This document shows, piece after piece, positions 31,451 to 34,286 of a DNA stretch of 35,127 nucleotides. Numbering within the stretch: the first letter of the stretch is position 1; each line of letters opens with the position of its first letter. The stretch is from a virus. The notes under the pieces were generated by a model, which was given only the letters and a program-made list of their open reading frames with translations, did no database searches and had not been told where the DNA came from. The position numbers and the translations under genes are program-made. The stretch is from IMG/VR virus record IMGVR_UViG_3300030060_003167, positions 1 to 35,127 of that record; one strand, written 5' to 3'.

Positions 31451-31489
31451 TCACAAACGTTTTTGACTTTTATATGGATAATAATAATG
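31451..31489 (+). promoter_or_regulatory. Early promoter-like element 1
   Basis: TCACAAAC (one mismatch to TTACAAAC) and ATGGATAATAATAA with starts 23 nt apart, the same spacing as four other copies. It lies 37 nt (measured from the second box) before the start of the 33 aa membrane-like frame. Confidence 0.55.
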
Positions 31490-31510
31490 TAACAAATAAA
31501 AATTAATACT

Positions 31511-31612
31511 ATGTTAAACTTAAAAGATATAATAATCAAATCATTCTTAACTTCATTAACTTCATTATTCTTATTCTCATTAATACTATTAATATATCAC
31601 TTAATATTCTAA
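31511..31612 (+). CDS. Small single-pass membrane protein, 33 aa
   Basis: The frame MLNLKDIIIKSFLTSLTSLF, continuing with FSLILLIYHLIF, is a short positive start followed by one hydrophobic segment of about 20 residues. It lies directly after early promoter element 1 at a distance comparable to the other genes, and it ends before the operator-like cluster. It is too short for statistical support; low-complexity A/T sequence could produce it by chance. Confidence 0.4.
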   Translation: MLNLKDIIIKSFLTSLTSLFLFSLILLIYHLIF

Positions 31613-31660
31613 TGACAATATGTCACACTATGACAATTTGTGCAATGACATTATGACATT
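31612..31660. promoter_or_regulatory. Cluster of TGACA/TGTCA half-sites
   Basis: ATGACA at 31612, 31630, 31645 and 31653, with TGTCA at 31621 making an inverted pair ATGACA-ATA-TGTCAC. The same inverted pair, ATGACA-AAA-TGTCAT, precedes early promoter element 5 at 34232. Repeated half-sites near promoters suggest an operator for a phage regulator. Confidence 0.45.
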
Positions 31661-31690
31661 TCTAATAAATAAACAAATTAACACTTCTAA

Positions 31691-31730
31691 TTACAAACAA
31701 AATATATAACTAATTGGATAATAATATAAA
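31691..31730 (+). promoter_or_regulatory. Early promoter-like element 2
   Basis: TTACAAAC at 31691 and TTGGATAATAATATAAA at 31714; 23 nt between starts. It precedes the 77 aa gene, with its second box 53 nt before the ATG. Confidence 0.6.
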
Positions 31731-31766
31731 CTAAATAAATATAAATAATAACTTAAATTCTAAATT

Positions 31767-32000
31767 ATGACAAACACTATTAATTCTAAAAGATTCGTAA
31801 TACGTAAATCTTTAATCGGTAAAAACACAACTATCAATGTTGAATTCAAAAATGGTAAATCTTGTACTTATAATCATGATAAAGTGTATGAAATTATGAA
31901 AGATACACTTACAAAACTTCCATGTTTTATCAAATACAATTCTTACACAAGTTCAACTAATGTACCTGTGAAAGCTAGAAGTGTTGTTGAAGTAAAGTAA
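31767..32000 (+). CDS. Early hypothetical protein, 77 aa
   Basis: Basic, beta-rich small protein (KRFVIRKSLIGKNTTINVEF, then YNHDKVYEIMKDTLTKLP). No motif recognised. It lies alone behind promoter element 2 and is followed by a GTGTTG...CAACAC inverted repeat overlapping its stop. Size and place fit an early host-takeover protein, but function is unknown. Confidence 0.65.
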   Translation: MTNTINSKRFVIRKSLIGKNTTINVEFKNGKSCTYNHDKVYEIMKDTLTKLPCFIKYNSYTSSTNVPVKARSVVEVK

Positions 32001-32014
32001 TCAACACTCTACAA

Positions 32015-32059
32015 TTATACTCTTGGAGCAGAGGTGGGTTTCGATTACCTACAGTATAA
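32015..32059 (+). tRNA. tRNA-like minihelix (acceptor plus T-arm remnant)
   Basis: TTATACT and AGTATAA pair perfectly as a 7 bp acceptor-like stem. The 3' strand of it abuts directly a 5 bp T-arm-like hairpin, GTGGG and CCTAC, with loop TTTCGATTA containing TTCGA. Twelve nt replace the D and anticodon arms. CTA follows, as after the tRNA-Met. It cannot work as a normal tRNA; it is either a remnant or a tRNA mimic. There are only 45 nt, so chance pairing is possible. Confidence 0.35.
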
Positions 32060-32079
32060 CTAACTTAAATATAATAACT

Positions 32080-32298
32080 ATGCAATTTACTGATTATAAT
32101 GCAGAAGCAATCGCTGCAAAACTAAAACAAGTTGAAGACTTTGAAGCTAAATATGGTGAAAACGATATGAGTAAAGCTTGGAGAAAATGGTGTAATGACC
32201 ACCAATATAGAAGACGTGAGTGGCTATGGCGACAAAATCTTGCTAAAGCTAATAAAGAACTACATAATACAATTTACCATGAAGAAAGATTTATATAG
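32080..32298 (+). CDS. Early hypothetical protein, 72 aa
   Basis: The start at 32080 is preferred over 32023, because the longer form would run through the tRNA-like element. The product is helical and charged (AAKLKQVEDFEAKYGENDMS, then QYRRREWLWRQNLAKANKEL). No motif recognised. Its 3' end overlaps the next gene by 20 nt. Confidence 0.6.
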   Translation: MQFTDYNAEAIAAKLKQVEDFEAKYGENDMSKAWRKWCNDHQYRRREWLWRQNLAKANKELHNTIYHEERFI

Positions 32299-32434
32299 AT
32301 TTGCAAAAGCAAGAAGAAATAAAAAAGTTGAGTTATTTAAACTCACTAAAGAACAATTAGAAATGATTGAGCACAAATATTATAGTAGATTTAATACTAA
32401 TTATTACAAACAAAATATTAATTCTATTGGATAA
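32279..32434 (+). CDS. Early hypothetical protein, 51 aa
   Basis: Start chosen at 32279 (MKKDLYRFAKARRNKKVELF), overlapping the upstream stop by 20 nt; a longer form from 32195 would lie almost wholly inside the other gene. Strongly basic N-terminal half, helical, possibly nucleic-acid binding by charge only. Its 3' end contains promoter element 3. Confidence 0.5.
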   Translation: MKKDLYRFAKARRNKKVELFKLTKEQLEMIEHKYYSRFNTNYYKQNINSIG

Positions 32435-32440
32435 TATAAT
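32404..32440 (+). promoter_or_regulatory. Early promoter-like element 3
   Basis: TTACAAAC at 32404 and TTGGATAATATAAT at 32427; 23 nt between starts. The second box is 25 nt before the ATG of the 66 aa gene at 32452. The element overlaps the 3' end of the 51 aa frame, encoding its last residues (YYKQNINSIG). Confidence 0.6.
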
Positions 32441-32451
32441 AAAAATCAATT

Positions 32452-33185: not shown

Positions 33186-33193
33186 TAAAAAAT

Positions 33194-33382
33194 ATGTATT
33201 GTAAATGTGGAAACACTGTGCACCCAGTGCGTTTAGAATTAGGTTATAAAAACTGTGTAAGTTGCAGTACAACTAAAACTTACTCGTACGTACCTATTAT
33301 CACTCATAAAACTGGTAATACTATACAAATAGTATCGCAGGAAGTTTCCGCATCAGTACATAAAGCATGGAGACGAAAATAA
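33194..33382 (+). CDS. Small zinc-ribbon protein, 62 aa
   Basis: C3 and C5 (MYCKCGN) and C21 and C24 (NCVSCS) form two Cys knuckles spaced like a mini zinc ribbon; the second half has THKTGNTIQIV. I recognise this as a type of small protein found in several marine phages. It may bind nucleic acid or RNA polymerase. It sits behind promoter element 4 and overlaps the next gene by 16 nt. Confidence 0.65.
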   Translation: MYCKCGNTVHPVRLELGYKNCVSCSTTKTYSYVPIITHKTGNTIQIVSQEVSASVHKAWRRK

Positions 33383-33591
33383 ACATACTAGAAAGATTAT
33401 TATATATAGTAATGATATGTAGCTTTTGTTTTTTTATTGGTGTGTTCTATACATACTATAAAATAGATCAGCGAACGTGGAATGAAGATATACTAAAAGC
33501 TAGAGATATAGAAACGAGGTATATAAATTACCCAACTAAAAGAAATTATAAAAAAGACGACTTAGAAAGAATAATATATGGAAAAAATTAA
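33367..33591 (+). CDS. Small membrane protein, 74 aa
   Basis: One hydrophobic segment (LLYIVMICSFCFFIGVFYTY, about residues 11-30) is followed by a charged cytoplasm-type tail with LERIIYGKN at the end. It overlaps both neighbours, consistent with a real gene in a packed operon. Function unknown. Confidence 0.6.
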   Translation: METKINILERLLYIVMICSFCFFIGVFYTYYKIDQRTWNEDILKARDIETRYINYPTKRNYKKDDLERIIYGKN

Positions 33592-33757
33592 AGGTAGAAA
33601 ATATGTATTTGTGCTTGACTATCAAGACGGTAGAGTGTATAGATATGATGTGTGGATAGATGATTCAGAAAAAATAGAAGATTATCTTATAGACATGGGA
33701 CACTCAATAGGTAACTGTGAGTGGATGACAACAAGATTTAAACGAGTAATAAAATAA
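33578..33757 (+). CDS. Early hypothetical protein, 59 aa
   Basis: The ATG at 33578 overlaps the end of the upstream gene by 14 nt and the frame runs to 33757, 1 nt before the next ATG. The product has strands GRKYVFVLDYQDGRVYRYDV and a helix DDSEKIEDYLIDMGHSIG, then CEWMTTRFKRVI: a small alpha/beta domain that looks well folded. No family recognised. Confidence 0.6.
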   Translation: MEKIKGRKYVFVLDYQDGRVYRYDVWIDDSEKIEDYLIDMGHSIGNCEWMTTRFKRVIK

Positions 33758-33758
33758 T

Positions 33759-33944
33759 ATGGATAGTAAAAAAGCATACGAGATGATGCAAGATGAAATG
33801 ATTGATAAAGAATCAGCTTATTTATGCACAGAATTAGAAAGAGCATTAGACAGAATCATAACTTATACAGATATGTTAGATGATAATGCGTTTACTAAAA
33901 TTAAAGCACCAGCCATTAAACTATTAAAAGAATGGCACTTGTAA
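33759..33944 (+). CDS. Early helical protein, 61 aa
   Basis: All-helical, acidic-then-mixed protein (DSKKAYEMMQDEMIDKESAY, CTELERALDRIITYTDMLDD). It ends the small-gene chain before the RNA region. No motif recognised. Confidence 0.6.
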   Translation: MDSKKAYEMMQDEMIDKESAYLCTELERALDRIITYTDMLDDNAFTKIKAPAIKLLKEWHL

Positions 33945-33948
33945 TCAT

Positions 33949-34025
33949 TGATAGATAGTTAGACGAGTAGGTTAATTAGGATGTGGCTACGGTACTAAGG
34001 CGTGGGTTCGACTCCCACCATATCA
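33949..34025 (+). tRNA. Degenerate tRNA-like sequence
   Basis: A clear T-arm, GTGGG-TTCGACT-CCCAC, has the same loop as the tRNA-Met downstream. TGATA and TATCA give five acceptor pairs followed by two mismatches, and GTTA with TAAT can form a D-stem. The anticodon arm does not fold normally: TTAG and CTAA pair only around a 15 nt loop. It is either a decayed tRNA or one interrupted by a short insertion. No anticodon can be read. Confidence 0.4.
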
Positions 34026-34155
34026 TCACATAACTGAATAGCTAACCAATTAGGTATCAATAGGTTACGTCAAACCGCTACATACGCATGTGGTGCCGAA
34101 GAGTTGATCGCCCGGCGAGCGTACGGAAGTGTATTGCGTATGGCGGTAAGATATT
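34026..34155 (+). other. Gene-free stretch with elevated GC
   Basis: No supported frame is present on either strand here. The stretch between the tRNA-like sequence and tRNA-Met contains a local GC-rich patch (about 34090-34147) and a long-range inverted repeat listed separately. It resembles an RNA gene region more than a protein gene. Confidence 0.5.
34074..34147 (+). ncRNA. Possible structured RNA closed by a 13 bp stem
   Basis: ACCGC (34074-34078) and CATACGCA (34081-34088) pair fully with TGCGTATG (34135-34142) and GCGGT (34143-34147), with only a 2 nt bulge. The enclosed 46 nt include a TCGC-CCG-GCGA hairpin and are GC-rich for this genome. It ends 8 nt before the tRNA-Met. I cannot assign it to a known RNA family. 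Confidence 0.4.
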
Positions 34156-34227
34156 AGCGGGATAGAGCAGTGGTAGCTCGCGAGGCTCATAACCTCGAGG
34201 TCGTAGGTTCGACTCCTACTCCCGCAA
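34156..34227 (+). tRNA. tRNA-Met (CAT), initiator-like
   Basis: Complete cloverleaf: D-stem GAGC/GCTC, anticodon stem CGAGG/CCTCG with loop CTCATAA (anticodon CAT at 34188-34190), variable AGGTC, T-arm GTAGG-TTCGACT-CCTAC. Six acceptor pairs hold and the first pair is an A-A mismatch, as in initiators where 1-72 does not pair. A11-U24 is also an initiator trait. Only two of the three G-C pairs beside the anticodon loop are present. CCA is not encoded. Confidence 0.85.
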
Positions 34228-34231
34228 CTAT

Positions 34232-34246
34232 ATGACAAAATGTCAT
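34232..34246. promoter_or_regulatory. Palindrome before early promoter element 5
   Basis: ATGACA-AAA-TGTCAT, 6 bp perfect arms, ends 3 nt before the first box of promoter element 5 and 4 nt after the tRNA-Met. It matches the half-site cluster at 31612-31660, so an operator is more likely than a terminator; it may do both. Confidence 0.5.
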
Positions 34247-34249
34247 GTT

Positions 34250-34286
34250 TTACAAACATAATATAAATAACTTTGGATAATATAAT
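34250..34286 (+). promoter_or_regulatory. Early promoter-like element 5
   Basis: TTACAAAC at 34250 and TTGGATAATATAAT at 34273; 23 nt between starts. The second box is 25 nt before the ATG at 34298, matching element 3. Confidence 0.6.

Follow-up and report, generated by a model that had tools for sequence, protein, structure and literature searches.

Which factor reads a two-box DNA element that recurs with fixed spacing before the small genes of an uncultured phage? The element lies in IMG/VR virus record IMGVR_UViG_3300030060_003167, analysed here as a window of 35,127 bases (G000) that represents a fragment of an uncultured aquatic podovirus and whose terminase and portal match phage families. 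Leftward late genes occupy the window up to ~31.2 kb and are followed by a rightward small-gene block that is cut at 35127. Because the named relatives identified through the terminase infect Flavobacterium, Cellulophaga, Maribacter and Tenacibaculum, we infer that the host is a Bacteroidota bacterium; the closest complete record is MW202828 (terminase identity 63%).

The repeated element and its promoter-like features

The element TTACAAAC-N15-TTGGATAATA occurs as four exact copies (31691, 32404, 33145 and 34250), and a further copy at 31451 reads TCACAAAC...TATGGATAATA with one mismatch per box. An earlier note on this DNA had described five copies; all five sites and their spacing hold, although strictly as four exact copies plus one near copy. 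As that note had also read them, the two boxes start exactly 23 nt from each other in 5/5 copies, all on the + strand between 31451 and 34282, and three copies lie 25–26 nt before an ATG (25, 26 and 25 nt from the second box for copies 32404, 33145 and 34250). Allowing up to three mismatches, we found no sixth match on either strand of the whole 35,127 bases, in agreement with the note, in which the leftward late block had no copy. Chance would supply 0.21 matches according to dinucleotide-preserving shuffles, and 0/100 shuffles reached five. A weight matrix built from relatives scored the window copies at 40.0, 34.9, 34.8, 34.8 and 9.3 bits, and the next-best window site at −10.3. The copies, with starts predicted from the geometry described below, are:

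31451..31483, + strand: promoter copy 1 (degenerate, TCACAAAC-N15-TATGGATAATA); predicted +1 G31489; ATG of a 33-codon open reading frame (ORF) at 31512
31691..31723, + strand: promoter copy 2 (exact); predicted +1 A31729; ATG of a 77-amino-acid (aa) gene at 31767
32404..32436, + strand: promoter copy 3 (exact), overlapping the 3′ end of ORF 32195-32434; predicted +1 A32442; ATG at 32452
33145..33177, + strand: promoter copy 4 (exact); predicted +1 A33183; ATG at 33194
34250..34282, + strand: promoter copy 5 (exact), just 3′ of a tRNA-Met gene; predicted +1 A34288; ATG at 34298

The conserved element is longer than its two boxes, which are its best-conserved parts, and extends from about −38 to +1. 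A matrix of 310 instances from relatives gives the fuller consensus TTACAAAC[A/T]AAATACGA-N6-TTGGATAATA followed by an A/T-rich stretch; the window copies form a subtype that, like that of G019, has lost CGA.

Judged from these sequences, the repeats are almost certainly promoters for small, probably early genes. If GATAAT occupies −12 to −7, a purine (A or G) stands at the implied +1 in 98% of the 310 instances and in 99% of 348 instances from loci that encode a sigma-70-family protein (described below), an arrangement that agrees with a sigma-70 −10 hexamer at about −12 to −7 and a purine start 7 nt downstream. The 310 instances were picked on the two boxes, with GATAAT itself part of the selection, and the sigma-locus instances were collected by upstream-box similarity plus GATAAT, so that neither of these two parts can count as independent support in the latter set, which was gathered without regard to the +1 purine, the distribution of gene starts, the spacer or the letters at −13. 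Among the 348 instances the first downstream start codon very rarely lies 5′ of the implied +1 and most commonly lies ~10–24 nt downstream, and in 14 of them, including the sigma genes of L277 and L308, the ATG falls exactly at the implied +1. Elements are oriented as their genes are. The 'early' timing of the block is deduced from gene position only, and 'middle' timing is no less possible: the block also contains the sigma gene, which in some phages has its own copy in front.

Host-type promoters look different. Mapped Flavobacterium promoters carry TAnnTTTG variants at −12 to −5, alongside sigma-54, TAnnTTGY and extracytoplasmic function (ECF) CGT types (PMC9723704); the element instead has GATAATAT at −12 to −5, and the TAnnTTTG box is absent. 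It also fits poorly to a standard −35/−10 pair, as had been suspected: in place of TTGACA with a 16–18 bp spacer, TTACAA and GATAAT are 20 bp apart and the conserved upstream box is 17 bp long. The earlier reading of a phage promoter family of non-host type is strongly supported by the missing TAnnTTTG box, by the fixed spacing across unrelated spacers, by the single-strand occurrence, by the purine at the implied start and by the scarcity of gene starts 5′ of it. A search for host-type TTG..TAnnTTTG pairs on the early strand revealed no excess (27 seen vs 22.7 expected), and host-type promoters on that strand were rejected as a candidate. No convincing separate late-promoter motif emerged; isolated GATAAT hexamers precede a few late genes inconsistently. 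A start codon followed immediately by a stop (ATGTAA) occurs around the implied +1 in 90 of the 348 instances (motif positions 32-43, 0-based).

Conservation, drift and a co-occurring sigma factor in relatives

An exact-pattern scan of IMG/VR returned at least 120 stretches with the spacing of 15; N12-14 together gave 6 and N16-18 together 10. The spacing of 15 is thus specific, with at least 120 stretches vs 16 for the six other spacings combined. Each of 23 long clade records carries 1–10 copies (up to two mismatches), typically within a few kb and on a single strand, the exception being a stray two-mismatch match in G013; most relatives have 4–12 copies apiece on one strand, 5′ of small genes. 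Between phages, the boxes vary: G, C, A or T stands directly 5′ of GATAAT, and the upstream box reads TTACAAAC, TTGCAAAC, TTCGAA.. or TTACAAAACC. The base at −13 agrees in 76% of comparisons within a phage vs 28% between phages; for spacer positions the two values are almost the same (about 0.32 within vs 0.29 between phages). Copies within a phage are therefore not recent duplicates and track a reader that differs between phages; boxes that drift coherently while the spacer does not imply a reader encoded by the phage.

Further along the same block, a few kb downstream, motif-bearing relatives encode a 250–260 aa sigma-70-family protein. The protein matches PHROG_351 'RNA polymerase sigma factor' (E=1.5e-19) and, in a PDB profile search, RpoD chains (E=1.4e-8), and Pfam assigns region 2 (Sigma70_r2) in 27 of 29 members and region 4 (Sigma70_r4, −35 recognition) in 16 of 29 (best 1.2e-5). 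An AlphaFold model has a mean predicted local distance difference test score (pLDDT) of 72.9 and a predicted template modelling score (pTM) of 0.49; its domain 2 superposes on solved sigma chains at 2.0–2.4 Å over ~98 residues (Z about 11–12), and the matches include sigma domain 2 bound to −10 oligonucleotides. A tblastn search with this sigma in 50,697 phage records detected no homologue. Directly 5′ of the sigma gene, in 50 loci, lies the gene for a conserved ~206-aa protein with a C-terminal helix-turn-helix (HTH), usually overlapping or adjoining the sigma start. HTH_11 is found in 23 of 28 members (best E=9e-7); the model of this protein reaches a pLDDT of 86.7, and a structure search with it gave no fold match, which is not evidence of a new fold. 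In several phages (L277, L308, L279, L322, L286 and L288) a promoter copy stands directly before sigma, whose start codon then falls at +1 to +4.

Element and sigma co-occur from three starting points. Of the sigma loci, 51 extend 7 kb or more upstream; at least four same-strand copies precede sigma in 50 of these and three in the remaining one, with almost none on the opposite strand. Starting from the motif, all 25 motif-cluster records (G001, G002 and G005-G027) encode the sigma; outside the 25 are G003 and G004, which are fragments, and G028, a 265-kb record with one chance match. Four complete relatives that are free of the motif (MW202828, phi38:1, elemoA and phi13:2) are also free of the sigma. 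We used a 142-aa protein of the window's early block as an unbiased probe of IMG/VR, scoring its relatives for motif and sigma content:

34530..34958, + strand: 142-aa early-block protein

A same-strand motif cluster accompanied its gene in 41/41 IMG/VR relatives, and the sigma was present in 25/25 with enough downstream DNA (more than about 5 kb). Because two clade-wide features share ancestry, co-occurrence alone would be no proof that the sigma reads the motif. Motif distance also correlates with sigma distance when replication genes are controlled (partial r 0.24–0.35, p≤0.002). Within region 2.4 ('IRRRID'), Ala replaces the third Arg in 11 of 14 phages with C at −13, a lead only, in related sequences; the best predictor of base −13 is the whole-protein similarity of the HTH protein (0.82). 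Drift and covariation together support a phage-encoded reader, without deciding between sigma and HTH protein.

Two observations concern the sigma records themselves. The sigma frame is broken by stops or frame changes in G023, G013 and G026, probably through assembly errors, since other conserved G023 genes are split too. All sigma hits among genome contigs fall in metagenome-assembled genomes, and contigs L347-L353 are binned in ones labelled Aliivibrio, Lewinella, Halieaceae, Ilumatobacteraceae and Sphingobacteriales; these are most likely, in part, mis-binned phage contigs and name no host.

Candidate readers of the promoters

We consider it likely that the repeats are promoters of the small-gene block read by the host core RNA polymerase after redirection by the phage sigma-70-family factor. 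The phage sigma, made early, would bind the host core and direct it to typically four to twelve promoters before the small-gene block. GATAAT would serve as the −10 element (−12 to −7), with transcription starting at the purine 7 nt past its final T. In place of a −35 element, sigma region 4 would recognise the long upstream box (TTACAAAC..AAATACGA, −38 to −22), perhaps together with the HTH protein encoded directly 5′ of sigma. The copy directly before sigma in several phages could provide positive feedback, and the first sigma might come from an unrecognised host promoter, leaky initiation or virion delivery. We infer that the sigma reads the motif, alone or with the HTH protein, and the window phage presumably carries both genes beyond its cut end. 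Of the earlier suggestion of a phage-encoded or altered polymerase, the phage-encoded reader survives, although the best candidate is a phage sigma on the host core and not a polymerase.

Several points weigh against this assignment. The window stops at 35127, before the expected sigma gene, which relatives encode a few kb further on. The 17-bp upstream box is longer than a usual −35 element. Sigma-dependent promoters would need another source of the first sigma, and host-type promoters are without excess on the strand. Ligase and the HTH protein keep partial correlations similar to those of sigma, so that covariation does not single sigma out, and residue-by-base covariation in sigma regions 2.4/4.2 was not sharp and yielded no decisive column. 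A more elaborate version, which we regard as rather unlikely, is that sigma and the adjacent HTH protein form a two-protein module that would read the 17-bp box and the −10 together and would be delivered, or made so early, that the whole block, sigma included, depends on it and not on host promoters, with box and reader drifting together across a large clade of uncultured Bacteroidota phages.

The activator-type alternative assigns the upstream box to the HTH protein, which would recruit host or phage holoenzyme to GATAAT much as MotA does at T4 middle promoters. Its presence in the 50 sigma loci tested, its HTH_11 domain, its value as a predictor of base −13 and the length of the box for a −35 element all speak for such a role, yet the sigma gene is always present too, base −13 is immediately next to the −10 element, a place normally read by sigma region 2, and the HTH protein has no fold match; we judge it unlikely that the HTH protein acts in this way. 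Host holoenzyme commonly transcribes early phage genes, and many bacteria have a −10 similar to GATAAT. Ordinary promoters for host sigma factors are nonetheless very unlikely here, given that the boxes drift phage by phage inside one clade and that the element fits no mapped Flavobacterium class (TAnnTTTG, sigma-54, TAnnTTGY or ECF CGT; PMC9723704).

A virion-carried RNA polymerase of the N4 or crAss-like kind, for example the giant last late protein, has an equally small chance of reading these early promoters. In relatives a giant protein of 2,600–3,900 aa does end the late module, as in N4-like phages, but that of G023 has no significant RNA polymerase family or PDB match, that of G019 matches only P-loop/zeta-toxin families, such proteins are poorly conserved among phages that share the promoter, and the geometry of the motif is sigma-type (−10 plus long upstream box), neither compact nor hairpin. 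No RNA polymerase match was obtained for the giant proteins tested against Pfam, PHROGs and PDB, searches that remote homology could escape; simple active-site patterns were uninformative, and the giant late protein was set aside as a virion polymerase candidate. Repeats with conserved spacing can be binding sites for proteins of any kind, and the elements might in principle be operators or packaging/replication signals. No tool result favours that view, and the gene-matched orientation, the position just 5′ of start codons, the purine at a fixed +1 and the ATG exactly there in several genes make it the most improbable of the explanations considered.

Promoters read by a phage sigma on the host core would have partial precedents. 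In phiEco32 and 7-11, functional and structural genes likewise form divergent clusters, a phage sigma reads a few well-conserved promoters, and the sigma gene itself stands behind such promoters (PMC4331800). The promoters of those two phages, which drive middle and late genes, are made of one short block, TGATGT..TATA (PMC4331800), whereas the element here is long, has two to three parts and does not occur in the late block. Its consensus differs, with no TGATGT core and downstream TATA, and no anti-sigma was identified here. T4 gp55 serves late genes through a −10-like box only. SPO1 gp28/gp34 and T4 gp55 are also lytic-phage sigmas that redirect the host core to phage promoters (PMC9429907), although they belong to other hosts and other phage types, and the sigma described here has regions 2 and 4. 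Flavobacterium sigma-A provides the reference for host-group geometry (PMC9723704), with TAnnTTTG there and GATAAT(A) without TTTG here. The T4 middle promoters resemble the present element in combining an upstream box, bound by the phage protein MotA, with a −10 element. They use host sigma-70 with AsiA, whereas here a phage sigma is encoded beside the HTH protein. A single-subunit polymerase reads the hairpin promoters of N4. The N4 virion RNA polymerase also serves podovirus early genes in a phage with a giant late protein (PMC4496689), but neither a hairpin promoter nor a single-subunit polymerase was found here.

The assignment would give a large clade of uncultured phages a testable transcription programme and would mark phage genes likely to be switched on together. 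Natural promoter variants in the hundreds, each matched with the sigma of its phage, would form a data set on the evolution of sigma specificity, and Bacteroidota, a group with unusual promoters of its own and limited genetic tools, would gain a non-host promoter type.

Gene layout and neighbouring features

Two further features frame the promoters, the second of which includes several ORFs with homologues in motif-bearing relatives:

31230..31450, no strand: divergence region, from which the late block runs leftward and the small-gene block rightward
31767..34958, + strand: small-ORF block behind the promoters, no known function; PHROGs matches weak or none

On the late side, the window encodes a GroEL-like phage chaperonin (25456-27003) and, near it, a 146-aa protein of unassigned function (24775-25215; PHROG_17028) that is kept even in distant relatives. 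The 2,607-aa giant late protein of G019 (23654-31477) contains a P-loop domain with a match to zeta-toxin/AAA_33 kinases (E about 3e-14) that is not seen in the giant proteins of two related phages. Within the small-gene block, an odd non-coding stretch (33945-34155) lies 5′ of the tRNA-Met gene (34156-34228); it includes a tRNA-like T-arm at 34001-34018, and its tmRNA match is weak, far below threshold. An inverted repeat, TGACA-N3-TGTCA, occurs at 31613-31625, 31646-31658 and 34233-34245 (two exact, one mismatched), a whole-window count weakly above chance (3 seen vs 1.09 expected). These repeats sit shortly 5′ of promoter copies 2 and 5 and could be an operator.

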